A stretch of DNA of 64,000 bases, from the NCBI GenBank assembly GCA_024743315.1, contig JANSWU010000001.1, positions 310,001 to 374,000 on the forward strand, given 5' to 3'. How positions within the stretch are numbered: position 1 is the stretch's first letter; every line of letters starts with the position of its first letter. Of the stretch, positions 47,487 through 63,944 are shown piece after piece. Both the position numbers and the translations under genes were made by a program. Origin of the DNA: Hyphomonadaceae bacterium (GTDB taxonomy: Bacteria > Pseudomonadota > Alphaproteobacteria > Caulobacterales > Hyphomonadaceae). The notes beneath the pieces were generated by a model. It was not told where the DNA came from. It was given only the letters and a program-made list of their open reading frames with translations, and searched no databases.

Positions 47487-47605
47487 AAGGGAAAAATTCT
47501 GTCAGGACACTTTTTCACTGGCGTCTTGGCACAATCCTCCTTTTATAACAGAGCAAGTGTCGAAAAGTGCGGGCCACTGGTCTAGCCCATCCGATCAGGT
47601 GAGGA

Positions 47606-48409
47606 ATGAAACGCCGAGAAAAGAAGAGCGAAAGCTTGGACATCCGTCTGCCATACCAACAGAAGCAAGACTTCATGGCGGCAACCAAACAACAGGGCGA
47701 GACCGCGTCTCAAGCTCTGCGCCGTTTCATTTCTGACTATATCGAAGAGGCTCGGCTGGCTGAACAACCGCACCCGGTCCAGGAGATCTCTATGACCATC
47801 GCACGACACAGACTGAAAACCCTCGCCACCGCCGCCGGCGCCGCTCTCGGCGTCTTTTCCATCACAGCCTTGCCCTCGGCAGCCGATTCCTCTGCCTTTG
47901 ATGCCCTCGACAAGAACAAGGATGGCGTCCTGACCGAAGGCGAGATTGCGCCCGGCTATGATGCCGACATTATCAGCAAGCTCGACACGGATGGTTCCGG
48001 CGGCGTGAGCCGCGAGGAACTCGAAGCCGCTGGCGATCACATTGTCATCCGAGATGACGAGACAACCTCGGACGAAGACGGCAAGACCGTCACCCGCAAA
48101 ACCGTGAAGGTGCTTGAATTCAGCGATAGCGCAGACGGCGTCATCCAAGGCGAAGTCAAAACTGAAGTCGACCGCAAGATCGTCATCAAGCGAATGGATT
48201 CCGGGTCGGAGCTCTCCGAAGCGGAAATGGAAGCCTTGATCGAAGAAGCCCTGGCAGAAGCGGGCGGCATGCTGGACGATGCCGAATTGATCACCGAAAC
48301 CATTCACGAAGAAGTGGATGAGGACGGCAATAAGCGCGTCATCATCAAGAAAATGAACCGGTCAGAGAAAACCGTCACGACGGACGAAGAGACAGAGTCC
48401 GAGGACTAG
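47606..48409 (+). CDS. Ribbon-helix-helix / membrane segment / EF-hand protein
   Basis: This 267-aa frame is unusual. Residues 1-50 form a CopG/ParD-like ribbon-helix-helix (ESLDIRLPYQQKQDFM, then ETASQALRRFISDYIEEA). Residues 63-95 look like a signal peptide or membrane segment (MTIARHRLKTLATAAG, then a hydrophobic core ending LPSAADS). Then come two canonical EF-hand loops: DKNKDGVLTEGE (about 105-116) and DTDGSGGVSREE (about 128-139). A Glu/Asp-rich tail ends the protein. As read, a DNA-binding domain faces the cytoplasm and a Ca2+-binding domain the periplasm, like a one-component sensor. However, ATG63 has AGGAG six bases before it, so a separate secreted EF-hand protein of 205 aa may be made from the same frame. 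It lies 119 bp after uppP. Confidence 0.75.
   Translation: MKRREKKSESLDIRLPYQQKQDFMAATKQQGETASQALRRFISDYIEEARLAEQPHPVQEISMTIARHRLKTLATAAGAALGVFSITALPSAADSSAFDALDKNKDGVLTEGEIAPGYDADIISKLDTDGSGGVSREELEAAGDHIVIRDDETTSDEDGKTVTRKTVKVLEFSDSADGVIQGEVKTEVDRKIVIKRMDSGSELSEAEMEALIEEALAEAGGMLDDAELITETIHEEVDEDGNKRVIIKKMNRSEKTVTTDEETESED
47781..47794 (+). promoter_or_regulatory. In-frame internal ribosome site and start in the RHH/EF-hand gene
   Basis: AGGAG at 47781-47785 and ATG at 47792-47794, spaced by six bases, stand exactly where the ribbon-helix-helix part ends and a signal peptide-like sequence begins. Starting here would give a secreted 205-aa EF-hand protein. Confidence 0.6.
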
Positions 48410-49656: not shown

Positions 49657-49706
49657 TTTGGGACGTGGCGATCGAAGAATTCGATCTGCATCAGGAGAGT
49701 ACACCA

Positions 49707-51698
49707 ATGTCGGGGCGAGACGCGTACCTTGAGCTAGGTTATCACCAAAAACCGGTGAAAACCCCGGAAGCAACACCAAAAAACGAGTTGGTTGACCAGC
49801 CGATGGAGACCGACACGCCCTCTTACTTGGCGATTGATCCCGCACAATATTCCGCAACGCCTGGATACAGTGATCCGGCCGTCCAATCGGAACGCTCTGG
49901 CGATTACCTCGCCGGGCTTATCGTGATTTTGGTTCTATTATTTGCCGGCGCGCTCGCAGGTTATTTCGGCCGCGGTTGGCTCAGCGACGGGACGTCGCGG
50001 GCCGTGACTCCAACAATTCTAAGCGCCCAACCAAATGCAGCGACTGAAATGTTTGGCGCGACCGGAACCCCAAGTGCCATGGTGTTTGGGTCCACCGCTT
50101 CAGATCAGGTCCTCGCGGTCGATATGACCCCGGGTGGAGACGCGTTGCTCTTGGTCAAAAGCTATGTTGGACCAAACGCCACAGATACAGAAACGCGCCT
50201 GTTCAGCACCTCAGCACCTTCCGACTCTGGTGTCGAAGCCGCGCCCATTGAGCTCACGTCGCTTCAAGGTGAAGGCCTCCACCTGACCCGCCTCGATGAT
50301 GGCGCCCTGATTGCGTTCTCGATCGATGGAAACGAATTGATCGTGGCGCGCCTGACCGATTCCGGCCGCGAAGTGTGGCGCCAATCCTTTGCCGCAAGCG
50401 CGGTCGATCGTTCGGAGGTCGCTTACGCAAAAGATACAAACGGCCTGGTGTTTATGGCACCGTCCTCATCACGCACGCTGACACAATTGGTCTCTATCAG
50501 TTCAGATGGCAACATCGCTTGGGAGCGTGTTTTTGATCGCCCGGACATGTGGCACAATTCATTTGTCAGCATCGATCAAACGGGTCTGACTTACGCTGTT
50601 TTGGGGCCGGCCAGCGATGACCAAACCTTCGGCGATCAAATTATTGCCCTGGTCGACACAAATGGCCGCCTGCTCCGGCAGCGAGCGCTCGCGCTCGACG
50701 CCTCTGACATGATATCCGGGGTCGCACCACGTGCTGCAGGCGGTGTTTCTTTTTTTGTGTCAGGAGATATGCCGCGCCTGATCCAGATTAATGAAAGCGC
50801 GCAGAGCGCTGGCACCATTGATTTGCCCTATATGCAGTACCTCTCGGACGCCCATATCATTCCGGTCGGACAAGGCGACATGTTTATCGCCAGCACTTAC
50901 GCGCCGATGGGCGACCGGATTGACCTCGTGCTCGAAAAACGCACGGCTGACGGCACGTCCCTCGGACAACTCTCTTGGGCGCTCCCGGCTGGCGCGACCA
51001 TGGACGACATGGTTAAATTGGCGGAGAATCGCTACTTGATCGCCGGCAGCGTGCGGTCCGACCGCTACATGCCGACCGATGTCTTTGTCCAAGAAATCAG
51101 CTTTGTTCCGAATGACCGAACACTGGCTATGGCCGCAGAGTCTGCGCAACCCGTGAGCCTGGCCGAGGAGTCTGCGAGCTCGAACGTGCAGCTCGCAGAG
51201 ACTGAAAATACGACAGAGTCGCTGCCGCTGATCGCCTCTTTGACAGTCGCTGCTCCAAGCCTTGAAGTGGCCGACGCCGCTGTGGCGCCGATCGAAGCCC
51301 CGACGGACGAACAAGAAAGCTCCGCTACAGAAACCGAAAATGTCATTTCTGAACCAGTCGTACCTGCGGCCGATCTGGCCACAGCGGTGAGCGAAACAGA
51401 GGAACCACTAACGGTCGAGACAGATGGCCCGAACGTGGTCCAAATGGAATCTGGTGTCGAATTCATTGTCGATGAGAATGCTGCGGCCATTTCGCGCTTC
51501 ATCGACGGTTCGATCGTCACGCAATGCCGTTTCACCTGCCTGGATCCTGCGACATCTAACTCATTCCCGATGACCGGGCATTTCCTGCCAGCACTATTGA
51601 GCACGGCACAGGATGCCAGCGCTCTGCACACTCGCGTCTGCGAGTCGGCGGACCTGGCTCCAGACGTCCAAACCCGCCCGACATGCGGATTTAACTAG
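49707..51698 (+). CDS. Membrane-anchored beta-propeller-like protein of the polysaccharide locus
   Basis: I do not recognise this 663-aa protein. It has a ~65-aa cytoplasmic N-terminus, one membrane segment (about residues 67-86), and a large periplasmic part whose repeating beta-rich units (for example LARLTDSGREVW, ISSDGNIAWERV, LVDTNGRLLRQRAL) resemble PQQ- or WD-type propeller blades. A low-complexity Glu/Thr/Ala-rich region (about 470-595) and a Cys-containing C-terminal domain (CRFTCLD, VCESADL, TCGFN) follow. The ATG at 49707 has AGGAG nine bases before it. It is the first gene of the exopolysaccharide run and may be a scaffold or sensor. Confidence 0.75.
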   Translation: MSGRDAYLELGYHQKPVKTPEATPKNELVDQPMETDTPSYLAIDPAQYSATPGYSDPAVQSERSGDYLAGLIVILVLLFAGALAGYFGRGWLSDGTSRAVTPTILSAQPNAATEMFGATGTPSAMVFGSTASDQVLAVDMTPGGDALLLVKSYVGPNATDTETRLFSTSAPSDSGVEAAPIELTSLQGEGLHLTRLDDGALIAFSIDGNELIVARLTDSGREVWRQSFAASAVDRSEVAYAKDTNGLVFMAPSSSRTLTQLVSISSDGNIAWERVFDRPDMWHNSFVSIDQTGLTYAVLGPASDDQTFGDQIIALVDTNGRLLRQRALALDASDMISGVAPRAAGGVSFFVSGDMPRLIQINESAQSAGTIDLPYMQYLSDAHIIPVGQGDMFIASTYAPMGDRIDLVLEKRTADGTSLGQLSWALPAGATMDDMVKLAENRYLIAGSVRSDRYMPTDVFVQEISFVPNDRTLAMAAESAQPVSLAEESASSNVQLAETENTTESLPLIASLTVAAPSLEVADAAVAPIEAPTDEQESSATETENVISEPVVPAADLATAVSETEEPLTVETDGPNVVQMESGVEFIVDENAAAISRFIDGSIVTQCRFTCLDPATSNSFPMTGHFLPALLSTAQDASALHTRVCESADLAPDVQTRPTCGFN

Positions 51699-51767: not shown

Positions 51768-53816
51768 ATGACTCAGAACAACTTATTGCGTACTGTTTGG
51801 TACGGGATTTGCTCACTGCTGGGGACGAGTACGACTTCTGATGATGACGGGACGCGATCTATGTCCATGGCGGCGACAAAAATCGGTGGGGATATGAAGG
51901 TGGAAGCGCCCAGCGTTCAGCCTGAAACAGTCCTGGCTGTGATACCAACTTTGAATGAAGCCGTGCACATCGAGGCTTGCATTCGCTCTCTCATGACCGG
52001 TCATGACGCGCTTAAATCGGTACCGCTGGTCGTGGTCGATGGTGGCAGCACGGACGCGACCGTGGCGATTGTCGAAGACTTGATGAAAGAATTCGAGAAC
52101 CTGAGCGTCCTTTCGAATCCAAAGAAACTGCAATCGGCGGCCCTCAATCTGGCGGTCAGCGAAGCGGCAATGGAGAAATCCAGATGGCTGGTCCGCTGCG
52201 ATGCGCACTCCCTTTATCCGCCAAACTTCATCCTCGACATCGCCGAATCGCTTGTCGAAACCCGCGCGGAATCCGTCGTCATCGCCATGGATGCTGTCGG
52301 CACCACCTGTTTCGAGAAAGCCAATGCCTGGATCGTCGATACACCGTTGGGGTCAGGCGGTGCAGCGCATCGTGGTGGCCAAGCGTCCGGTTATGTTGAT
52401 CATGGACACCATGCCGGCTTTGCAATCGAAGAATTCCGGCGCCTGGGCGGGTATGACGAAACCTTCTCTCATAATGAGGACGCCGAATACGATGCCCGCC
52501 TGACAGCACAAGGTGGACGCATCTTCTTGGACGCTGACATTCGTATTCAGTACGTCCCTCGGGGATCTATCTCGGAGCTCGCGCGACAATACTTCAATTA
52601 TGGCAAAGGTCGCGCGCGCAACGTCGCCAAAAACAAAACCCAGCTCAAACTAAGACAAATGCTGCCCGTCTTGGCACTACTGGCCAATCTTGGGGGCATC
52701 TTGCTGGCTCCATTCTTCTGGCCAGCCTTGCTGATCCCAGCGGCTTATCTGTCGGTTTTGATCCTCGCGTCGCTCTATGTCGCGCTTAAACACATGTCGG
52801 TTTGCGGCCTGTTTGCGGGCCTTGCCCTCGGCACTATGCATATGAGCTGGGCAGGCGGGTTTCTAAAGCAAAGCTATCGTCACTTTTCGGACTCGCGGCG
52901 ATCCAAAGGCGAACCGCGCGAGGCGCCGCACTCTGGGTTCTCACCCAAGCTGATGATCTCGGCAATCGGTCGCAATGCCCTCAACCTGCTCGCTCCGATT
53001 ACGGGACGACGGCGGACCTATGGTGCGCCATCCGCCGCCAATGAAAACTTTCGGATACACCGTCCAGTCACGCGCGTGACCAGCGTTCCCGAAGGACACT
53101 GCGTCTACGCGATTGGCGACATTCATGGCCGGTTTGATTTGCTCGAGGCGCTGATCCAGCAAATTGAAGCAGATGCTTCAAACTTGCCCGAGGGCACGAA
53201 GCAGACGCTTGTTTTTCTTGGAGATTATATCGATCGTGGGCTGCAGTCGCGGCAGATCATCGACTATTTCCTCAGCGATCGCCTGTCCGCGTTTGAAACA
53301 GTTTACTTGATGGGTAATCACGAAGAGGCGCTGCTCAATTTCATCCAGGATCCGAACTTCGGACAAAAATGGGCGATGTATGGCGGTGCCGAAACCTTGT
53401 TCTCATATGGCCTGCAACCGCCGCCCCGCGGCCTGAGTGCCAGTAATCCGGCGGCAGCGCGCGATGCCTGGGTGACGCTGTGGAATCAGTTTCGTGCGAG
53501 ATTGCCCGACGATCATTTGACATTCTACCAAACCCTGAAATTGTCGCACACGATTGGCGATTATGTATTTGTCCATGCCGGTATGCGTCCGGGCGTCCCC
53601 CTCGATCAGCAAACTGGCGAAGACATGATGTGGATCCGGGAAGAGTTTCTCGCCGCCAGTGGCAATTTTGACAAACTGGTCGTCCACGGACACACGCCGA
53701 CGGATACGGTGTATAGGGACAATCGCCGAATTGGACTGGATACCGGCGCTTACATGACTGGCCGTTTGACGGCGGCAAAGTTTTTGAATGAAGATATAGA
53801 CTATCTTTCCACTTAA
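51768..53816 (+). CDS. Glycosyltransferase family 2 fused to a PPP-type metallophosphatase
   Basis: This 682-aa protein joins two enzymes. The N-terminal half is a GT2 of the ExoA type: VLAVIPTLNE (about residues 53-62), VVVDGGSTDATVAIV, then the acceptor region GGYDETFSHNEDAEYDARL, followed by membrane segments (about 300-355). The C-terminal half is a calcineurin-like phosphatase with the PPP set GDIHGR (about 450), GDYIDRG (about 485), GNHEEA (about 517) and HGHTPT (about 642), matching PrpA/lambda-type phosphatases. The frame is continuous with no internal stop, so this is a true fusion if the sequence is right. The start is uncertain (51765-51894). It lies 69 bp after the propeller gene. 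Confidence 0.85.
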   Translation: MTQNNLLRTVWYGICSLLGTSTTSDDDGTRSMSMAATKIGGDMKVEAPSVQPETVLAVIPTLNEAVHIEACIRSLMTGHDALKSVPLVVVDGGSTDATVAIVEDLMKEFENLSVLSNPKKLQSAALNLAVSEAAMEKSRWLVRCDAHSLYPPNFILDIAESLVETRAESVVIAMDAVGTTCFEKANAWIVDTPLGSGGAAHRGGQASGYVDHGHHAGFAIEEFRRLGGYDETFSHNEDAEYDARLTAQGGRIFLDADIRIQYVPRGSISELARQYFNYGKGRARNVAKNKTQLKLRQMLPVLALLANLGGILLAPFFWPALLIPAAYLSVLILASLYVALKHMSVCGLFAGLALGTMHMSWAGGFLKQSYRHFSDSRRSKGEPREAPHSGFSPKLMISAIGRNALNLLAPITGRRRTYGAPSAANENFRIHRPVTRVTSVPEGHCVYAIGDIHGRFDLLEALIQQIEADASNLPEGTKQTLVFLGDYIDRGLQSRQIIDYFLSDRLSAFETVYLMGNHEEALLNFIQDPNFGQKWAMYGGAETLFSYGLQPPPRGLSASNPAAARDAWVTLWNQFRARLPDDHLTFYQTLKLSHTIGDYVFVHAGMRPGVPLDQQTGEDMMWIREEFLAASGNFDKLVVHGHTPTDTVYRDNRRIGLDTGAYMTGRLTAAKFLNEDIDYLST

Positions 53817-53882: not shown

Positions 53883-54467
53883 ATGCCCCATGCCCTAAAA
53901 ATTTCGAGTGTTGCGCTTGGCTTGAGCGCCTTGCTCATCAGCGCCTGTCAATCGGGCCCCGCCCCCGCCACACCGACAGCATCCGCGCCCGCGACAACTG
54001 TCACAGTCACTGAGTATACGCTATCATCCGGGGATCAGGTTAAAGTCACTGTGTTCGGTCAGCCTGACTTGTCCGGGCAATTTGAAGTCGACGGCAGCGG
54101 GACTTTCTCGATGCCATTGATCGGGCAAGTGAGTGCAGAGGGGCTTTCAGTGCCACAGCTGGAGTCCACGATTGCGGCAGCCCTGGCCGATGGCTATTTG
54201 GTCAATCCACAGGTCAGCGCCGAAGTTGCCAATTACCGGCCCTATTACATTCTTGGAGAAGTAAGAAATCCGGGTGAATATCCGTACACGAATGGACTGA
54301 CCGTGATGGAAGCTGTGGCCTCAGCTGGTGGCTTTACCTACCGGGCACGGAAGAATGTCGTCTTTGTCCGCGCGACCGATGCCAATGCAGAGCAATCTGT
54401 GGCTTTGACCGCGACCACTCAAGTGAAACCAGGCGATACGCTTCGCATCGGTGAGCGCATCTTCTAA
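53883..54467 (+). CDS. Polysaccharide export lipoprotein (Wza family)
   Basis: This 194-aa outer-membrane lipoprotein forms part of the polysaccharide export channel. It has a lipobox LISAC (Cys20), a Poly_export domain (about residues 45-120, with YTLSSGDQVKVTVFG), and an SLBB domain (about 120-170, with YYILGEVRNPGEYPYTNGL). It lacks the C-terminal amphipathic helix of E. coli Wza, so it may be a short form that needs a partner, such as the outer-membrane barrel at 62156. AAAGGAG precedes the ATG. Confidence 0.92.
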   Translation: MPHALKISSVALGLSALLISACQSGPAPATPTASAPATTVTVTEYTLSSGDQVKVTVFGQPDLSGQFEVDGSGTFSMPLIGQVSAEGLSVPQLESTIAAALADGYLVNPQVSAEVANYRPYYILGEVRNPGEYPYTNGLTVMEAVASAGGFTYRARKNVVFVRATDANAEQSVALTATTQVKPGDTLRIGERIF

Positions 54468-54846: not shown

Positions 54847-55539
54847 ATGCGTGTTAGAGTATCAGAAGATCCCATGCATCTGACCGGCGTTCGGATTGAA
54901 TCCAGCCACGCAGAGCATATCACACCAAATATAGACCCACTGAAGCGGGCCTTCGATATTGTCGTGGCCGCAACGGCCTTGGTGCTGCTTGCGCCGCTGA
55001 TCCTTTTATTCGCAATTCTCGTCCGCATCCAGGATGGCGGGAAGTCGATTTTCGCGCATGACCGGTATGGACTGAACGGAACCACGTTCAAATGCTATAA
55101 GCTTCGCTCGATGGCGGTCGACGCCACGGAGCGACTGCAAACGCTGCTCAATGAGAACCCGGAACTTCGGCGGGAATGGCAAGCGACGCAAAAGCTGAAA
55201 AACGATCCCCGGATCACGCCGCTCGGTCAATTCCTGCGCAAGTCTTCAATCGATGAGTTGCCTCAACTCTGGAACGTGCTGCGCGGTGATATGTCGATCG
55301 TCGGCCCGCGTCCGATTGTGAAAAACGAAATCCAGAAATATGGCGACAGCTATCGGTTCTACACCGCTGTCCGTCCTGGCCTGACAGGCCTTTGGCAAGT
55401 TGAGGGTCGTACCGAGACCACATATCAGGAACGTGTTGAGATGGACGTGCGATACGTCCAGACACGGAGTTTCTGGAATGATGTCTGGATCGTTCTTAAA
55501 ACCATCCCTGCTGTGATCGCTTCACGCGGCGCTGTTTAA
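54847..55539 (+). CDS. Priming sugar transferase (ExoY/WbaP-type)
   Basis: This 230-aa protein transfers the first sugar-1-phosphate to the undecaprenyl phosphate carrier and so starts polysaccharide synthesis. The Bac_transf signature is complete: KRAFDIVVAATALVLLAPL (membrane reentrant helix, about residues 32-50), FKCYKLRSM, SIDELPQLWNVLRGDMS and GPRPIV. There is one hydrophobic segment, the monotopic form. The sugar is not readable. GGGGGCG lies before the ATG at 54847. It works with the GT2 and GT4 enzymes and uppP nearby. Confidence 0.93.
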   Translation: MRVRVSEDPMHLTGVRIESSHAEHITPNIDPLKRAFDIVVAATALVLLAPLILLFAILVRIQDGGKSIFAHDRYGLNGTTFKCYKLRSMAVDATERLQTLLNENPELRREWQATQKLKNDPRITPLGQFLRKSSIDELPQLWNVLRGDMSIVGPRPIVKNEIQKYGDSYRFYTAVRPGLTGLWQVEGRTETTYQERVEMDVRYVQTRSFWNDVWIVLKTIPAVIASRGAV

Positions 55540-55642: not shown

Positions 55643-56599
55643 ATGGCTAACCCCCCGATCTTAATCTCAGGCTGTCCGCGCTCAGGCACCACGTTTTGCG
55701 GCAACATTGTCTCCAAAGCGCCCGAGATTTTTGAGGTATACGAGCCGTTCAATCATGACTTCACGTATCATCTCGACCTACCGACGAAATTCTTTCGCGT
55801 CACTGCCGAGAACGAGGCCGAATACAAACCCCGAATCGATCGCCTATTGGCTCTAAGCAGCCCGGCGCAACGCTGGCGCCATTTGCCGCGCGGCGCGGTT
55901 GAGCGCCTAGCCTCTAAAAAGGACATGACCGCGGCGCTGTCCCTGAAAAAGCTGGCTCAGGATCGCGACAGTTTCCTGCACGCCTCTCGAATCTCTATCA
56001 AAGATCCGATCGCCTTCTTCTCCGCCGATTGGCTGGCCCGCACGTATGGCGCCCGTGTTGTCATTATGTGCCGCCACCCGGGCGGTGTGGTCTCGTCATT
56101 CCTGAATCTTGGCTGGGAATCAGAAACCAAATATATCGTCGATCATCCACTGCCTTTGTCCAACGGTAAGTTTGATAAAGAAATCGCGGCTTGGCGACGC
56201 AAGCCTGACGACGCCGTCGGCGCGGTGATCTTGCAATGGAAATTGTTCACCCAAGCCAGTCTGGATTGGCACAAAATGCACGCCGATTGGTTCTTCTGCC
56301 TGCATGATCAGCTTTGCGATCACCCAGTGGATCTGTTTCGGGCGATCTTCAGGTCCATTGACTTGCCTTTTACACCCAAGATCGAAGCGCAAATTCGGGC
56401 CGATACGGGGGCCTCAAACATTATCGACCCTGCACAGCACACGCAGCACAATTTGCGACGCCAGAGCGCGGAACTCAAAGACCAGTGGCGCAAGCGACTG
56501 GATCCAGACATCGGCAATCGGATTGTCAAGGAAACCGAAGCTCTTTGGGACGAGGCGACGCGTGCCTTTTCGATCGATTTGTCGCGAGCGGCGGCTTAA
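55643..56599 (+). CDS. Sulfotransferase family protein
   Basis: This 318-aa protein has the PAPS-binding loop ISGCPRSGTTF (about residues 8-18) and the 3'-phosphate motif MCRHPGGVVSSFLNLG (about 140-155), typical of Golgi-type or bacterial sulfotransferases. Its place among polysaccharide genes suggests it sulfates the exported polymer, a common trait of marine bacterial exopolysaccharides, though other acceptors are possible. It is 103 bp after the sugar transferase. The stop overlaps a small convergent gene by four bases. Confidence 0.87.
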   Translation: MANPPILISGCPRSGTTFCGNIVSKAPEIFEVYEPFNHDFTYHLDLPTKFFRVTAENEAEYKPRIDRLLALSSPAQRWRHLPRGAVERLASKKDMTAALSLKKLAQDRDSFLHASRISIKDPIAFFSADWLARTYGARVVIMCRHPGGVVSSFLNLGWESETKYIVDHPLPLSNGKFDKEIAAWRRKPDDAVGAVILQWKLFTQASLDWHKMHADWFFCLHDQLCDHPVDLFRAIFRSIDLPFTPKIEAQIRADTGASNIIDPAQHTQHNLRRQSAELKDQWRKRLDPDIGNRIVKETEALWDEATRAFSIDLSRAAA

Positions 56600-56953: not shown

Positions 56954-58093
56954 CTAGTCTGCGAGTATCTCTCTGATGATATTGGACAAAAACCCGGCAG
57001 GTTGCACAAAAACATCAGTCGACTTGGAAAGGAGTACTTTTTGGTAATCGAGGATCTGGTCACGTTTTGACAGCAAGTCCTCTACGAATCGCGGCAATGT
57101 CTCCTCCAGTCGCTCTTCGACCGTAAAGCCAACCCCGTGATCCGTGATCCAGGCCGCCGTCTGCGTGCCCGCAGGCGCAATCGACGGCACAGCATAATAA
57201 CCGCCTTCATAAATCCGGTTCGGCAACAGCCAGACCGAATTATGCCCGGCTTCCATGAAATCGCCGGCCCAGACCACATCCAGCTTTTCGTAAATCGCCG
57301 ACAAGTCTTCAGGAGAGCGATATCGGCCGTGAAAGGTCATATTGTCCCGCGCCTCAATAACCGGTTCAAATACGGGTATCTCAGTGCGCGCGGGAATGCC
57401 GTGTAAATGAATGTGAACGCGCGGGCCGAGCTGGTCGGCTGTTTGGGCGAGCAAGTCCAAAGATCGCTTGCAGCGAAGCTTGCCGATCCAGCCAATCTGC
57501 AAAGGGTCAACCTCTGCACTGACTTTCGCGGCGGGTCTGGCACCATATTCGGCGCCCGCGGCGAGACGGTTTTCGATTAAATAGGCTTTGTAATCCCCAG
57601 GATAATATCGCTCGAAATGGTTTTCGACGAAGCCCGGAGAACTGACGACCAGGGCGCGACACCGCTTCAAGAGCCGGTGCTCGAGGGATCGGAAGGCCCG
57701 CCCGAACAGGTCGGTTCGGCTCAACATGCGATGCACATCAAGGCTCTCATACACTACGGGAGTATCGAGTTTGAGTTTTCGCTTGGTCAGAAATGCCAAG
57801 GCCAGCATGTCCAGATTGCGCGCATAAATCAGATCAGCCGCGCGCAAACGCGCCGCGTCCTCCGCCGCGATTGAGGCGCCGGAGAAAATCGAGCGAATGC
57901 GTTGGAGGAAAGCCGAGTCCCGGGTTTCGCCCAGATCAACATTGTCCCAGAACAGCGACCCCGGATCGCGTCGATGCATCATGTAGCCCGTCACTCCGAG
58001 GCCATCATCTTGAAACGCCTGGACGCGGCGTCGGTTGGCGGCATCTGCGGAGTCATGACCGAAAAAGGCGATATGGATCGGTCTGTCAGGCAT
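56954..58093 (-). CDS. Glycosyltransferase, GT4-like (GT-B fold)
   Basis: This 379-aa protein has the two-domain GT-B layout: N-terminal IAFFGHDSADAANRRRVQAF, an acceptor/linker region, and C-terminal LQIGWIGKLRCKRSLDLLA followed by the Glu-rich motif NRIYEGGYYAVPSIAPAGT near residue 315. It would add a sugar to the growing repeat unit. The stop of the flippase gene is four bases before its ATG, so the two are cotranscribed. No strong ribosome site was seen. Confidence 0.87.
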   Translation of the reverse strand: MPDRPIHIAFFGHDSADAANRRRVQAFQDDGLGVTGYMMHRRDPGSLFWDNVDLGETRDSAFLQRIRSIFSGASIAAEDAARLRAADLIYARNLDMLALAFLTKRKLKLDTPVVYESLDVHRMLSRTDLFGRAFRSLEHRLLKRCRALVVSSPGFVENHFERYYPGDYKAYLIENRLAAGAEYGARPAAKVSAEVDPLQIGWIGKLRCKRSLDLLAQTADQLGPRVHIHLHGIPARTEIPVFEPVIEARDNMTFHGRYRSPEDLSAIYEKLDVVWAGDFMEAGHNSVWLLPNRIYEGGYYAVPSIAPAGTQTAAWITDHGVGFTVEERLEETLPRFVEDLLSKRDQILDYQKVLLSKSTDVFVQPAGFLSNIIREILAD

Positions 58094-58097
58094 CGAA

Positions 58098-59564
58098 CTA
58101 AGCCGGTTTCACCTGGGTTTTTCGATCGAGCACCATTTCAATCGTTTTTTGCAACCAGGTCCGATGAACCAGGAACAGGTAACCAAAATAAGCGGCCACG
58201 CCGATACTCGATTTGAGACCAATCTGCCAAAGCGATGGCATATGGTCGAAAAAGGATGCCGCCGTCAGCACGACAATGGCCATGACAACCGCACCCAAAT
58301 AAGCCGGCGCGACCCGATGGACGAGGGCGGCGAGTTGGACTCCGACCTCTTTCAGAACGATCGGCATGAAGAGCACGGTTGAGACCAAATAGACAATCCC
58401 CAAAGCGCTCACCATACCGGTAATGCCGAACGGTCTCAGGAGCAGGCAAAGCGACCCCAAGAAGACGAGGTCCCAAAGCGCCAGATTGACCAGTGCGCGG
58501 GTTCGTTTCAGGGCGATCAGGACCGCATTTCGGAAATTGTAGAACGGGGCCAAGGACCCAAACAGGGCCAACAATCCGAGGATCGGACCAACGGCTTTGA
58601 ATTCATAGGCAACAAAGACGTCAATGAAGTTCTGAGAGATCAATGCGATCCCAACAAAAACCGGCACCAGAATGGTGGCACCCAATTGTGTCAGATTGAG
58701 AAAAATCCGCTTTTTGTCTTCTGGGCCTGTATCCTTGGCGGACAACAAGATTACCCAAAGGGATGAAATCGGATTGGCGAATGCCGCGAAAACAGCCTGC
58801 ATGATCCGTTCGGCGATCCGCCACAGGCCGACCGCAGCGGCGCCGAAAAATGCGGCAATCGCGACATCAAGGACACGCAATAAAGACTTCACACAGGTCT
58901 GCGCCATGAAGATGCGGCCCGCTTCTTTGGCGAATTCCCGGGCCCAGGATCGGTCGAAATTGAAGGAGGGGAAGATCCGCGTTTGCACGATCAGCAGGCC
59001 TGCTTCAGCTGTGTTCGCCATCACCCTTTGGGCCACAAGAGCCCATTCGGGATGCGGCCCAAAGGCGACAATCAAAGCCGTGATGCCGCCAACAAACTTT
59101 GCAAAAATGGCGCGCAGCGTGATGGTTTTAAAATCGTGTCGCTCATAGAGCACCGCAGTTGGGGCGAGGGCAAATGGGATAATGATCAATGTCACGGCGA
59201 GCGCGCGCAGAACATCGGTGATCTCAGGATAGCCAAAAGCTCCAGCAATAACCGGGGCCAGAAGGACAAAGAGCGCCGCGAAGCCACCATAAATCATGGT
59301 CGCAACCCAATAGATCGTTGCGAGGGATTTCTTGTCGAAACGCTGCCGCTGGACAATGGCATCAATAATCGAAAAGCGACCCTCGAGATTGAAGAACTCA
59401 ATAAATACGAGCGCTAGCGCGAAGATGCCGAAGACAACCGGGGACAGCTTTGTGGTCAGAAGCAGGAAAATGGCGAGCGTCATGACCTGACCGACGCCAA
59501 TGTTCAGCATGTTCCAGGTCAGCGCGGAACGGAACGAAGATCCAAATTGCTTCTGCTCAGACAT
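58098..59564 (-). CDS. Polysaccharide flippase (Wzx/MATE-like)
   Basis: This 488-aa membrane protein has about 12-14 hydrophobic segments and the opening SSFRSALTWNMLNIGVGQVM, as in PST-type exporters that flip undecaprenyl-linked repeat units. No enzyme motif is present. It sits between the GT4-like gene and the tyrosine kinase, all on one strand. Together with the priming transferase this supports a Wzx-dependent pathway, but no Wzy polymerase lies in the window. Confidence 0.88.
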   Translation of the reverse strand: MSEQKQFGSSFRSALTWNMLNIGVGQVMTLAIFLLLTTKLSPVVFGIFALALVFIEFFNLEGRFSIIDAIVQRQRFDKKSLATIYWVATMIYGGFAALFVLLAPVIAGAFGYPEITDVLRALAVTLIIIPFALAPTAVLYERHDFKTITLRAIFAKFVGGITALIVAFGPHPEWALVAQRVMANTAEAGLLIVQTRIFPSFNFDRSWAREFAKEAGRIFMAQTCVKSLLRVLDVAIAAFFGAAAVGLWRIAERIMQAVFAAFANPISSLWVILLSAKDTGPEDKKRIFLNLTQLGATILVPVFVGIALISQNFIDVFVAYEFKAVGPILGLLALFGSLAPFYNFRNAVLIALKRTRALVNLALWDLVFLGSLCLLLRPFGITGMVSALGIVYLVSTVLFMPIVLKEVGVQLAALVHRVAPAYLGAVVMAIVVLTAASFFDHMPSLWQIGLKSSIGVAAYFGYLFLVHRTWLQKTIEMVLDRKTQVKPA

Positions 59565-59637: not shown

Positions 59638-62073
59638 CTACTTCGTAGATGATCCAGACCACTTGGCTTGCTTTGCAGGTTCTTTGGCCTCTGGGGCGCC
59701 AACGAAATTGGGCGTTTCCTCATTCGCTGGGCGCAGAGCTGCGGCTGGGCGCGGGATCGGATTGTCCTGCACTGGCGGGAGTTTGTCCTTACTGCCAAAC
59801 AGTTTGTTGCGTGTGCCCATGGAGTAATATTTGCTGTACGCTTTATTACTGGCGCTTGGGTCTTTGTGATGGCGACGGCTGGTCAGGTTGACCATGTTGA
59901 GGGCGACGCCAAGCAGGTTCGCATTGAAGTTCTTCAGCAGATTCAACGACTGGCGCGCCGCACCGCGGCTCGTATGACGCCAGCGGACGATGAGGATCGT
60001 CTTGTCAGCTTTACCCGCAATTACCCGTGCCTCTGCCATCAACAGGAGCGGACCAGTATCGATCAGGATGCTGTCATACTTCTGCTTCAGCACTTCCAGC
60101 AGGTCATCAAAGGCCCGCGTCCCGAACACGTCATGCGGCGTATGGCCGGTTTTAGACAAGGGAAGAATATCGAGTGATGATTTTGTGTCGCGATGGATCG
60201 CTTCGTCGAGGCTGCCCGCGCCAAACAAGTGTTCAATGAACCCAATCTTCGGCGAAATCCCGACCATCCGCGTCAACTCCCGACGGCGGAAGTCACCATC
60301 AATGACCAAGGTCCGAGAGCCAGACATGGCCGACATCCGTCCAAGGCTGAGGGTCAGGCTGGTCTTGCCTTCATTCGGCAGAGACGAGGTGATTGCAACC
60401 GTCTTGGTCTGACTGTCGAGATCCGAGAAAGCGATCGCGGCGCGCAAGTAGCGGACACTTTCGGCATAGGCCGAGAGCGGATTCTTGGTCATGAAATCCG
60501 GTGGACTATTCTTGCCAAGACCGAGAATGCCGCGGTTTGGAATGAATGGGATCGAGCCAATCGATTTTGAACGCAACTTGCGTTCGACATCTTCCGTCGA
60601 GCTGACATGCATGTCGAACATTTCGGCCAGCATGGCGAGGCCAATCCCGAACATGCCCCCCAACAAGACGCCGAGAACCAGATTGATCATGGTTTTGGGT
60701 GAGCTTGGCCCCACCGGCACAGATGCGGTCGATAGGATGCGCGCATCGGCTTCCGCCAGATCGTCTTGTTCGCCGGTTTCTTTGGCGCGGCTGATAAAAT
60801 CTTCATATAGAACACGGCTGGCTTCAGCATCCCGCTCAAGTTCGTTCAAACGAACCTGATTGCGATTGTTCTGGATCAATTGGCCGCGCGCGCGCCCGAT
60901 CGCGGCGTTCAGCTTGTTGACCTCATCCTGGGCGGCCTGAACTTCGTTCTCCAGCGTGGTGATGATCTTCTGGACCTCAACATTAATCGCGCGCTCGATA
61001 TCAGCCGCCTCACTGCGCACACGGATCAGGTCCGGGTGGCGCGACCCCAAAGTGCTTTCAAGGTCGGCTTGGCGACGCAAAACGACCGCCTGCTGGCTCT
61101 TGAGATCAGAGATCACTGGATTGTTCAAAACTTCAGCGATTGAGTCGACACCGGTACCAGAGGCCTGGGCGCGACGCACGTTCTCGAATCGCGCCCGAGC
61201 TCGGTTGAGCAGCGCCTCTTGTTGAATTTTTTGCGACGACAGCGATGCAATCTCTTGCTCGGTCAGCGACGTCCCCGCCGCCGCGAGGAGTCCAGACTCA
61301 GAGCGATACTCTTCGACCCGTCTTTCCTTTTCGGACACTTCATCCCGGAGGCCTGACACCCGTTCAAGCAGCCAATTGGTGGCGCGTTGGGTGGTTTCCA
61401 GTTTCGCTTCAAGTTGATCAACCCGGTATTGGTCCGCGACGGCATTGGCGAGATCGGCTGATTTCTGGGCCGAGACGCTATACACCTCTGCATTGATCAG
61501 GAAGGTGGTCCCGACCCGTTTGACATCCACATGTCGGGAGAAATTGTTGGTTGTATCTTCGAGGATCTTGGCGTTTTTCTGATCCTCGGTCATGCCTTCA
61601 AAAGGATCGACATCCTTGTCCTTATTGCCGCCGACAAGGCCACGGAGAAAGCCTTTGATTTGCCCGACGGCACCTTTTGGGCCGCCTGTGTTCAGGTGCG
61701 GGTTGAACTCAGGATCCTCAACCAGGTTCTGAGCGCGAACCACACGGGTCAAAAGGGATTTTGATCCCATGATTTCAACTTCGGTGTCGATTTCTGCGGT
61801 ATTGCCGCCAACCCCACCAATAACGCTGCCGAGGTCAATCACATTGCGTTCTTTGGTATCAACAATAACCGTGGCTTTCGCAGTATAGACCGGAGTCGCC
61901 GTGAAGGTCATGTAGGCCACCAGCGAGAACACGGTTAGAAAACCGATCGCGATGATCCAGTAGCGTCGATAAACGACATCAACGATCGACTTGATCGTGA
62001 CTGGCAAGCCTTGGTCTTCATATCCGCTACCTGCGGATGCTTGCGGCAATTCGATGCTGTACCTTGTGCTCAC
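59638..62073 (-). CDS. Polysaccharide co-polymerase / tyrosine autokinase (Wzc/ExoP-type)
   Basis: This 811-aa protein controls chain length and export. It has a Wzz-like N-terminal domain with membrane segments at about residues 35-55 and 455-480 and a coiled-coil periplasmic part (GNVR-type), then a cytoplasmic BY-kinase domain with Walker A LPNEGKTS (about 568-575), Walker A' LVIDGDF (about 590) and Walker B SILIDTGP (about 668). The C-terminal tail carries a Tyr cluster (AYSKYYS) for autophosphorylation. It starts with GTG at 62073 with AGGGTG before it. No low-molecular-weight tyrosine phosphatase gene is present nearby. Confidence 0.94.
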   Translation of the reverse strand: MSTRYSIELPQASAGSGYEDQGLPVTIKSIVDVVYRRYWIIAIGFLTVFSLVAYMTFTATPVYTAKATVIVDTKERNVIDLGSVIGGVGGNTAEIDTEVEIMGSKSLLTRVVRAQNLVEDPEFNPHLNTGGPKGAVGQIKGFLRGLVGGNKDKDVDPFEGMTEDQKNAKILEDTTNNFSRHVDVKRVGTTFLINAEVYSVSAQKSADLANAVADQYRVDQLEAKLETTQRATNWLLERVSGLRDEVSEKERRVEEYRSESGLLAAAGTSLTEQEIASLSSQKIQQEALLNRARARFENVRRAQASGTGVDSIAEVLNNPVISDLKSQQAVVLRRQADLESTLGSRHPDLIRVRSEAADIERAINVEVQKIITTLENEVQAAQDEVNKLNAAIGRARGQLIQNNRNQVRLNELERDAEASRVLYEDFISRAKETGEQDDLAEADARILSTASVPVGPSSPKTMINLVLGVLLGGMFGIGLAMLAEMFDMHVSSTEDVERKLRSKSIGSIPFIPNRGILGLGKNSPPDFMTKNPLSAYAESVRYLRAAIAFSDLDSQTKTVAITSSLPNEGKTSLTLSLGRMSAMSGSRTLVIDGDFRRRELTRMVGISPKIGFIEHLFGAGSLDEAIHRDTKSSLDILPLSKTGHTPHDVFGTRAFDDLLEVLKQKYDSILIDTGPLLLMAEARVIAGKADKTILIVRWRHTSRGAARQSLNLLKNFNANLLGVALNMVNLTSRRHHKDPSASNKAYSKYYSMGTRNKLFGSKDKLPPVQDNPIPRPAAALRPANEETPNFVGAPEAKEPAKQAKWSGSSTK

Positions 62074-62155: not shown

Positions 62156-63469
62156 TTACGGGAAGATTGAAAGAGCGATGCCGATCTCATTGGTTGAGAA
62201 GCTCGGATCAAAGGCATTGCCTGTAATCGACGCATCGCGTTCGATGTTCTGCACATATCCGGTCACATGCGCGCGCTTGTTCAGCTTGTAAGTCAAACCA
62301 GCGCCGAAGCGTGTATAATCGTCTTTACGATCGATCTCCTGATAATCGTCCTCGACAATGCTACCAAACAGACTGCCAATCACTTGTCGTGAGAATTCAT
62401 GGTCGATATTTGCACCGAAGCTGGTTTGCAGCGTGCTCGGCGACTCAATCAGTCCATTGTCTGTGACCCGGCGACCGGCGGTCAGCGTGACCGTCGTCAA
62501 ACGGCTCGGAAACCATTCCACATTGCCATCAACAGATAGGCCATCGACATCCTCGAAGGCATTGTCCTTTTTGTCTTCAGAGAAGAAGCCAATGGCAATA
62601 TCGCCGCGCAGCAAATTGGTGGTTTCGAAATTCACACCACCAGCGACGACATAACCGTCTGAGTCACGCACGCGTGGTGTTGCGACAAGCGTGGTTGGGT
62701 CGATGACCGTGCGGGCGCTGTCATATTCGGTTTGCGTGACGGTCCCTTGACCAAAGACGGCGATGTTTGGGGAAACGGCATATGACAGTCGAGAGGTGAA
62801 GTTCACATCATCATTGTCGCGGAAATCCTGCTCAAACACGGTGTTGGTGTTGCGGAAAAACCCATCGTCAAAGTCTGACTGGGTCAGACGCAAGGCATTG
62901 GTCCAACGAATACGCTCACTTTGATAGTTACCAGCGACGCGGACCGTGGTTCGCGTGAATTCGATCGGGCTGTCGAGCTGCGCCCCATTGGCATAGTTCG
63001 AGCGTGGCTGCACCGTATCACGGATAGATGCTTCGGCAGAGACGTTGAATGCGCGAGAGACATCAAGCCGTCCGGATGCGCCGACATCAACTTCGGTGAA
63101 CGACTCATCCGAGAAATCGGAGAACTCTGTACGACCGAGACGCCCGCGCAAGCCGACTTCGTGGACGCTCCAATCGGTTCGAGCGTCGGCCGAGACCGCC
63201 GCGCTGAGAAGCGTGTCAGACTCTTCAGGATTGCCGGTATTACCGCTGGCCGCAAATACATTGTCTGTGGTTGCGACGCCGACGGTCAGGTCTGAAGCCA
63301 CCACGAATGCGCCGAGGCGAACGGGTTCTGGGTCAAAATCGGGTTGGGCTCGATCTTTGACAGCTTCATATTTGTCGCGATCATAAAAATTGTCTTGGGC
63401 ATTGGCTTGAACAGACATCAGGCCAAGGGTTGCGATCGCGATGAGCGATGAGTTTCGTAGATACTTCAT
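62156..63469 (-). CDS. Outer-membrane beta-barrel protein (BBP2-type porin)
   Basis: This 437-aa protein has a signal peptide (about residues 1-24, ending VQANAQ) and a long series of amphipathic beta-strands with Phe at the ends, including the final VTGYVQNIERDASITGNAF and IGIALSIFP. The pattern matches outer-membrane beta-barrel porin 2 proteins that often accompany exopolysaccharide export genes. It may form the outer-membrane gate with the Wza-type lipoprotein. The ATG at 63469 is preferred; the frame extends to 63517, over a hairpin. A Wzi-like role is possible. Confidence 0.87.
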   Translation of the reverse strand: MKYLRNSSLIAIATLGLMSVQANAQDNFYDRDKYEAVKDRAQPDFDPEPVRLGAFVVASDLTVGVATTDNVFAASGNTGNPEESDTLLSAAVSADARTDWSVHEVGLRGRLGRTEFSDFSDESFTEVDVGASGRLDVSRAFNVSAEASIRDTVQPRSNYANGAQLDSPIEFTRTTVRVAGNYQSERIRWTNALRLTQSDFDDGFFRNTNTVFEQDFRDNDDVNFTSRLSYAVSPNIAVFGQGTVTQTEYDSARTVIDPTTLVATPRVRDSDGYVVAGGVNFETTNLLRGDIAIGFFSEDKKDNAFEDVDGLSVDGNVEWFPSRLTTVTLTAGRRVTDNGLIESPSTLQTSFGANIDHEFSRQVIGSLFGSIVEDDYQEIDRKDDYTRFGAGLTYKLNKRAHVTGYVQNIERDASITGNAFDPSFSTNEIGIALSIFP

Positions 63470-63944
63470 GGATTTAACAATCCCCACTTTACTGGATCCG
63501 GGCGCGCCCCGGATCATTGGACGTGATGAAGCAATGCACGTGCCAAGTTACAATTCGTATAACCATAAACTACCAAATGCTTACTGCATTCTCGGCGTCC
63601 CCTTGCCGTCAGCGTTTCGCTGGGTTGATGCGAACCTTCAGTCATCTGATTGAACGCGTCCCACACACTTAGCTTCTTAAGTGCTCCTGCGACCGCTTGG
63701 GGTCACGGATTTGATATGGCACAATAAAATTCGATTGTCAGTGATTTCCTCTGTTTTTTTTGCCTTCGTCAGACCTGGTTCGACAACTGGCATAGGCCTG
63801 TAAATACGTACGATTCCGCGTCTACCTGTCTCAACGCAAAAATGTATTATTGTGCCCGCGCATTCAGCTTGATAACTGGCGTCGGGATTGCACGCGCGAA
63901 CAGCAAGGCTTGAACCATCGGTTCAGAATGGGACGTGACTGAAA
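63470..63944. other. Intergenic stretch upstream of the barrel gene
   Basis: About 475 bp without a recognisable gene. It contains the barrel leader hairpin (63495-63515), an inverted repeat CACTTA/TAAGTG (63666-63683) and a distant pair GCACAATAA/TTATTGTGC (63719-63727 and 63847-63855). The last part leads into an open frame starting at 63945. Confidence 0.55.
63495..63515. promoter_or_regulatory. Leader hairpin of the beta-barrel gene
   Basis: GATCCGGG (63495-63502) pairs with CCCGGATC (63508-63515), 26 bp before the barrel start at 63469. It could affect translation or be an operator; it lacks a T-run on the minus strand. Confidence 0.4.

Follow-up and report, generated by a model that had tools for sequence, protein, structure and literature searches.

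Positions 51768 to 53816 of the window, by which we mean the whole 64,000-nucleotide stretch of Hyphomonadaceae DNA analyzed here, encode a single protein in which a GT2 glycosyltransferase (GT) is followed by a PPP phosphatase. The gene lies in a polysaccharide locus, and its parts and neighbors are listed below with the evidence for each.

51768..53816, plus strand: fused gene, GT2 glycosyltransferase and PPP phosphatase, 682 aa from the ATG
51924..52565, plus strand: GT2 catalytic core, about residues 53-266 (PF00535, model elements 55-262, motifs)
52650..52904, plus strand: membrane-associated helices 295-313, 318-341, and 345-379, with HxxWxxG (model, hydrophobicity, motif)
52905..53087, plus strand: linker, mostly of low confidence, with a short helix 393-408 (model, comparison with separate phosphatases)
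53088..53813, plus strand: PPP phosphatase domain, residues 441-682, with all metal-site motifs (PF00149, motifs, model, fold matches)
53883..54467, plus strand: Wza-type polysaccharide export protein (PF02563), next gene after the fusion (Pfam, locus comparison)
54847..55539, plus strand: initiating sugar-phosphate transferase (PF02397; Pfam)
55643-56599, after the initiating transferase: sulfotransferase (PF13469; Pfam)
56954..58093, minus strand: GT4-like glycosyltransferase, both Pfam matches below their cutoffs (Pfam, locus comparison)
58098..59564, minus strand: Wzx-type flippase (PF13440; Pfam)
59638..62073, minus strand: Wzc-type tyrosine autokinase with Wzz, GNVR, and kinase domains and the tail KAYSKYYSMG (Pfam, motifs)
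62156..63517, minus strand: outer-membrane beta-barrel (PF10082; Pfam)

The fused gene could begin at GTG 51765 or ATG 51768, ends at 53816, and contains no internal stop codon. Pfam recognizes both domains above the curated cutoffs, GT2 (PF00535) at residues 58-189 (E = 1.2e-18) and Metallophos (PF00149) at residues 446-653 (E = 6.8e-16), confirming the original prediction of a glycosyltransferase-phosphatase fusion in one frame. The full PPP motif set that had been read in the C-terminal half is likewise present: GDIHG 450, GDYIDRG 485, GNHEE 516, HAG 603, and HGHTPT 640 supply every element that defines the PPP family (GDxHG, GDxxDRG, GNH(E/D), and two further metal-binding histidines), and the metal-site motifs are retained in aligned relatives. 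Pfam matches to LMW-PTP (PF01451) or CpsB-type (PF19567) domains were absent from the fused protein at E values up to 0.001.

The N-terminal half carries the GT2 motifs DGGS 91 and HNEDAEYD 235. Its earlier description as an ExoA-type GT2 held only in part, in that a GT2 domain with C-terminal membrane helices is present but no ExoA-specific model was matched. None of the NCBIfam models reached its cutoff on this half, the best glycosyltransferase model being EpsD with 45.7 of 370 bits. In structure, residues 14-373 resemble PcManGT (6yv7), a GT2 enzyme with C-terminal membrane helices (Z 21.9, 3.8 Å, 295 residues aligned); unlike the window protein, the matched PcManGT chain covers no phosphatase.

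In a model of the whole fused protein (mean pLDDT 85, pTM 0.58), the GT2 core (55-262) and the helices (295-379) are followed by a linker, mostly of low confidence (385-434), and then by the phosphatase as a compact unit (444-682); how the halves are oriented toward each other in this model is unreliable. Modeled alone, the phosphatase has a mean pLDDT of 95.5. The retention of the metal-site motifs in relatives and the high confidence with which both domains are predicted to fold indicate that the fused frame is not a chance open reading frame. The short linker helix (393-408) sits where separate phosphatases have an N-terminal extension. Codon-position composition runs across the join with no clear break; since the two composition windows over the join show the highest second-position GC (0.54 and 0.58), composition is weak evidence on the join. 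As internal starts for a free phosphatase we considered the in-frame ATG 52953 and GTG 53076, upstream of which no clear Shine-Dalgarno sequence was seen by eye.

The kinase of the locus has the Wzz domain, the Walker A, A′, and B motifs, and the three tail tyrosines of a Wzc-type BY-kinase (BYK), as the original prediction of a tyrosine autokinase had it. The claim that no LMW phosphatase lies beside this kinase also held: PF01451 has no match on the window's contig (C4), and elsewhere in the genome it matches on contig C7 and, in part, on C1. The genome's second PPP, 41% identical to the window's, belongs to another polysaccharide locus (G000:C2:71481-78031, L123), which also encodes an initiating transferase, an export protein, and a separate BYK whose tail carries eight tyrosines.

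The sulfotransferase raises the possibility that the polymer of the window strain is sulfated. That the phosphatase might be a PAP phosphatase partnering this enzyme was rejected: a model made solely from the window's sulfotransferase matched only the window among the loci collected by then, so the enzyme is not a conserved partner. Immediately upstream of the fusion, a 677-residue protein (49665-51698) has no Pfam match, a single membrane segment by eye, and no relatives in the collected loci. An EF-hand protein (47606-48409) opposes another open reading frame (47582-48307), the latter with no Pfam match.

The conserved gene unit and the origin of the fusion

PPP relatives were assigned to classes A, B, and C by bit score, class A being the closest (at least 310 bits). 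The counts for B and C were taken from locus listings, the tabulated rows for these two classes containing fragments and domains counted twice. An export gene lies directly downstream of the PPP in 48 of the 49 class A loci that have at least 800 bp beyond it, and the conserved unit is the phosphatase with its Wza-type export gene rather than the fusion. A Wzz or BYK gene occurs within the available stretch in 29 of 54 class A loci; most of the other 25 are short stretches, and nine of them reach about 10 kb downstream with no such gene. LMW-PTP matches are absent from all 54 stretches. For the genome's second PPP and its orthologues (all 12 of the genus), 11 of the 12 loci include a BYK and the remaining one is a contig of 8.6 kb; among the more distant PPPs of the genus neither a BYK nor an export gene was found in the 12 loci examined of 20 matches. 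Of six annotated plasmid loci examined, five are polysaccharide loci by annotation, three of those with a BYK, and the sixth, in A. brasilense, is not a polysaccharide locus. One of the three, from Azospirillum TSH100, has a 25-bp overlap between its annotated PPP gene and the start of the BYK gene. Outside Hyphomonadaceae, EPS and non-EPS members are mixed in the topology of a FastTree phylogeny of the PPPs, so the whole PPP family does not form one EPS clade.

To describe the fusion we used loci from a scan of genome contigs (the best 80 of 90 loci kept) together with loci added later. Both genes occur in 50 loci (one genome counted twice), where they are fused in 2, adjacent in 34, and otherwise placed, meaning not adjacent in the order GT then phosphatase, in 14. 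In the adjacent loci the first in-frame ATG of the phosphatase, which need not be its true start, falls between -42 and +74 bp when measured from the last base of the GT stop codon; three of an initial 37 pairs (L067, L075, L091) were dropped, the phosphatase being upstream there. Only 2 of the 36 adjacent or joined pairs are fused, namely the window and L030 of genome G028, which is the one further fused genome among 29 of the genus, our own included. G018 and G027 have the two genes as separate neighbors, and in others of the genus the phosphatase lies apart from the GT or occurs with no partner GT. The GT is several kilobases away on the opposite strand in L061, L068, L071, and L072, and Henriciella loci such as L111-L118 have the PPP-export pair with no partner GT in the available stretch. 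The fusion is not a family of its own but an exception among separate neighboring genes, and it recurs in one other genome. The condition set to refute the original reading, separate and unlinked halves in close relatives, applies by half: the halves are usually separate and are linked in 50 loci, but some genomes of the genus have the phosphatase with no partner GT.

The GT tree and the PPP tree alike place the fused L030 as sister, at a support of 100/99, to the split L065, in which the GT stop and the phosphatase start overlap as ATGA. The window lies on another branch in both trees, its own position having no starred support, and the GT tree includes a partly filled, very long-branched row (L096). 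This branching argues against a single fusion event, which we rejected; as read from the trees, adjacent genes were joined on at least two occasions, the alternative being a history with many splits. Two candidates for further PPP fusions, in G038 (488 aa) and G109 (507 aa), proved to be upstream read-through with no second domain by our own models.

Nearest known phosphatases

Among solved structures, RLPH2, the Arabidopsis Rhizobiales-like phosphatase (Rhilph), was the first match to the window phosphatase in a profile search (9.8e-20, followed by Pnkp at 2.8e-19 and lambda phosphatase at 1.3e-17), in Foldseek, and in VIA fold matching (Z 22.1, 2.6 Å, 216 residues). Its lead over the Pnkp phosphatase (Z 21.3) is less than one Z unit, effectively a tie. 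Lambda phosphatase and ApaH are close behind, and a tyrosine-specific Shewanella enzyme follows RLPH2 and Pnkp at Z 18; the closest folds are those of protein phosphatases and nucleotide or polynucleotide phosphatases. Identity to RLPH2 over the fold alignment is 25-26%, and RLPH2 differs in being a plant protein with a longer insert. RLPH2 has been described as preferring phosphotyrosine through a deeper active site and as acting on MAP kinases (PMC12817480). A 2004 study found plant Rhilphs to be nearest to alphaproteobacterial PPPs, named a common insert motif, and described bacterial PPPs as possibly tyrosine specific, with a specificity that cannot be predicted without experiment (PMC535813). 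The strict insert motif of alphaproteobacterial group I PPPs and Rhilphs, LXXAXPXXH between GNHE and HAG, occurs in 3 of the 55 class A proteins and 10 of the 13 in class B but in none of the 12 in class C, and the window insert FRARLPDDH departs from it; the relaxed form [LF]xxxxPxxH occurs in 55 of 55, 10 of 13, and 0 of 12, respectively.

PssZ of Rhizobium leguminosarum is a PPP whose EPS cluster encodes a BYK, PssP, as well; it is needed for EPS, its mutant makes none and shows altered expression of many genes, and the published accounts label it Ser/Thr-specific from its sequence (PMC6071215, PMC6628131). Compared by published motifs only, PssZ has SDVHG and GNHD where the window has GDIHG and GNHE, and unlike the window protein it is described as a single protein of 263 aa, not fused. 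The Wza-Wzb-Wzc triad likewise places an export protein, a phosphatase, and a tyrosine autokinase in one polysaccharide locus, but Wzb is an LMW-PTP, whereas the window phosphatase is a metal-dependent PPP. YwqE is a PHP phosphatase paired with a BYK, and CpsB and YwqE belong to a domain family (PHP) other than that of the window enzyme. CpsB PHP phosphatases resemble the window phosphatase in being metal dependent and are paired with a BYK, according to a review that names two kinds of BYK phosphatase, LMW-PTP and PHP (PMC12220298). The alphaproteobacterium Gluconacetobacter is reported to have an LMW-PTP homologue, GDI2535, not far from the BYK GDI2549, judging by gene number (PMC8620434), and a Sphingomonas EPS cluster contains a tyrosine kinase, in an article whose main text does not use the word “phosphatase” (PMC11340318). 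No paper in the literature that we searched presents a PPP as the phosphatase of a BYK, and none describes a GT2-PPP fusion.

Kinase partners and the proposed role of the phosphatase

For a wider view of phosphatase partners, we used 96 alphaproteobacterial genomes, one per family, which contained 47 long-frame BYK matches, 50 high-scoring PPPs, and 134 LMW-PTP matches. BYK matches below 115 bits or with short frames were dropped (a 363-aa frame in G034 fell out and a 366-aa frame in G036 stayed in); for the Wzz part, frame length was the sole criterion in all 47. With search models built largely from the loci described above, which favors finding linked forms, a PPP was found within 20 kb of 15 of the 47 BYKs, compared with 0.6 pairs expected from genome sizes; the count becomes 16 with a contig-end fragment and 13 of 45 without our own genome. 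An LMW-PTP was found within 20 kb of none of the 47 (1.1 expected), 46 of which are in genomes possessing one, and within 40 kb of one (2.1 expected). None of the 47 had any of the 20 lower-scoring PPPs within 20 kb, and CpsB-type PHP domains (PF19567) were absent from all 96 genomes, our own included. The remaining 32 BYKs have no PPP within 20 kb, broken contigs accounting for part of them, and 35 of the 50 PPPs have no such BYK in range; twelve unlinked PPPs (L161-L172) have no kinase or export gene by our own models.

In a control of 27 non-alphaproteobacterial kinase matches (frames of at least 650 aa), an LMW-PTP lay within 4 kb in two (G142, G164) and a PPP within 20 kb in none, as counted by eye. 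These two cases show that the method detects LMW partners, but such partners are few there too, which weakens the alphaproteobacterial contrast. Two alphaproteobacterial genomes in the control sample add three more BYKs with a PPP 8-10 kb away, two of them in G152 and the third in G159.

Kinase tails were compared in a small set from related genomes, 32 BYKs that have both domains and differ in their tails. Where the locus contains a PPP, the tail has at least three tyrosines in every case (26 of 26); where it shows none, this holds for 2 of 6 (tyrosine counts 0, 0, 0, 2, 4, and 5). The available stretch of L058, whose BYK has 5 tail tyrosines and no PPP, ends at the kinase. BYK tails in L081, L100, L101, and L102, loci showing no PPP, have 0 to 2 tyrosines.

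The N-terminal extensions of the six separate PPPs examined have no membrane segment, and in 61 of 67 GTs the tail that follows the last helix has a net positive charge. Both observations favor a cytosolic phosphatase; the third helix (345-379) is only weakly hydrophobic. By this predicted topology, the phosphatase would be on the same side of the membrane as the kinase tail.

Given the fusion, the motifs, the predicted fold, the gene linkage, and the co-occurrence, we propose, with a probability of about 0.55, that the PPP reverses tyrosine phosphorylation of the BYK as Wzb does elsewhere and that the fusion tethers the PPP to the membrane. The C-terminal half would be a cytosolic two-metal PPP, active on phosphotyrosine, whose substrate is the Wzc-type autokinase encoded in this locus; it would dephosphorylate the kinase tail, KAYSKYYSMG, a job performed elsewhere by Wzb (LMW-PTP) or CpsB (PHP). 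Cycles of autophosphorylation and dephosphorylation would then control kinase oligomerization and, through it, chain length and export. In relatives the PPP is a free protein with an N-terminal extension, encoded in Hyphomonas directly after the GT2 gene; gene joining, here and independently in one other genome, may have tethered the PPP, through the membrane-bound GT2, to the place where repeat units are assembled, to whatever benefit such tethering would bring.

Several of these results strengthen the original suggestion of a PPP working for the kinase. The reading is favored by the position of the PPP beside the export gene (48/49), by the BYK near orthologues of the second PPP (11/12), by the 15 of 47 BYKs with a nearby PPP as against 0 of 47 with a nearby LMW-PTP (and no PHP), by the overlapping genes of TSH100 and the 26 of 26 tyrosine tails, and by the phosphotyrosine preference described for RLPH2. 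Among the four genomes of the genus with a GT-PPP pair, G018 and G028 have no LMW-PTP match, which also favors it; G000 and G027 have one or more. The same reading is weakened by the tie of RLPH2 with Pnkp and the closeness of lambda phosphatase and ApaH, by the many unlinked BYKs and PPPs (32/47 and 35/50), by the nine longer class A stretches lacking Wzz or BYK, and by the LMW-PTP elsewhere in our own genome, which could serve the kinase. The reported LMW-PTP homologue of Gluconacetobacter, the A. brasilense PPP outside a polysaccharide locus, and the bias of the search models toward linked forms weaken it as well. So does the gene next door in Hyphomonas: it encodes a GT, and the phosphatase may be directed at that enzyme or at what it makes.

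That last point leads to a different role, in which the phosphatase has as its substrate the glycosyltransferase beside it, or else an intermediate that is a sugar phosphate or is lipid-linked. The 34 adjacent loci, the ATGA overlap in L065, and the two fusions speak for such a role, but the Henriciella loci that pair the PPP with the export gene alone, the four loci with a distant GT on the other strand, and the prevalence of protein, nucleotide, or polynucleotide phosphatases among the closest folds make it quite improbable. Another candidate is a PssZ-like Ser/Thr phosphatase that regulates EPS through Ser/Thr sites on regulators or enzymes, the kinase being merely a neighbor. The EPS defect of the PssZ mutant (PMC6071215, PMC6628131) and the many PPPs of the same family that lie away from BYKs lend it some weight, but the Ser/Thr specificity of PssZ was assigned in those accounts from sequence, and window-type PPPs are linked to export and kinase genes, a linkage that follows the presence of the tyrosine tail; we regard this role as unlikely.

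Two further explanations concern the join itself. The fusion could be a neutral accident of two coupled operon genes, with activities as in the separate proteins, a reading compatible with the kinase-directed role of the phosphatase and one to which we give somewhat less than an even chance. Both fusions come from neighbors a few bases apart and only 2 of 36 pairs are fused, as a neutral event would have it; nothing in our data speaks directly against it, and the extension-like linker helix neither supports nor excludes a role for the join. A sequencing or assembly error that erased a stop codon between two genes appears very improbable: the frames are in register in L025-L029, so loss of the stop would join them, but a second genome has its own fusion, and the composition at the join is indecisive.

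For a BY-kinase to cycle, a phosphatase is required; if our kinase-directed reading is true, a PPP in this role would fill an alphaproteobacterial gap, suggest a possible substrate for PssZ, and hint at the role of bacterial relatives of a plant tyrosine phosphatase. The interest of the fusion would thus lie in pointing to a PPP in the Wzb slot of alphaproteobacterial polysaccharide loci. More tentatively, alphaproteobacterial PPPs may constitute a third class of BY-kinase phosphatase, with RLPH2 descending from this capsule-kinase line and the class twice fused to a pathway glycosyltransferase, which would tie sugar assembly to kinase switching. The free-standing PPP gene of Hyphomonas would make the question testable. 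In one Hyphomonas record (L042:10034-11080), the GT frame is split in two by a stop. Four Acidobacteria-labeled contigs (L053, L055, L056, and L057) carry a GT-phosphatase pair that is nested in the Hyphomonas clade at short distances, and these are probably mis-binned metagenome contigs.
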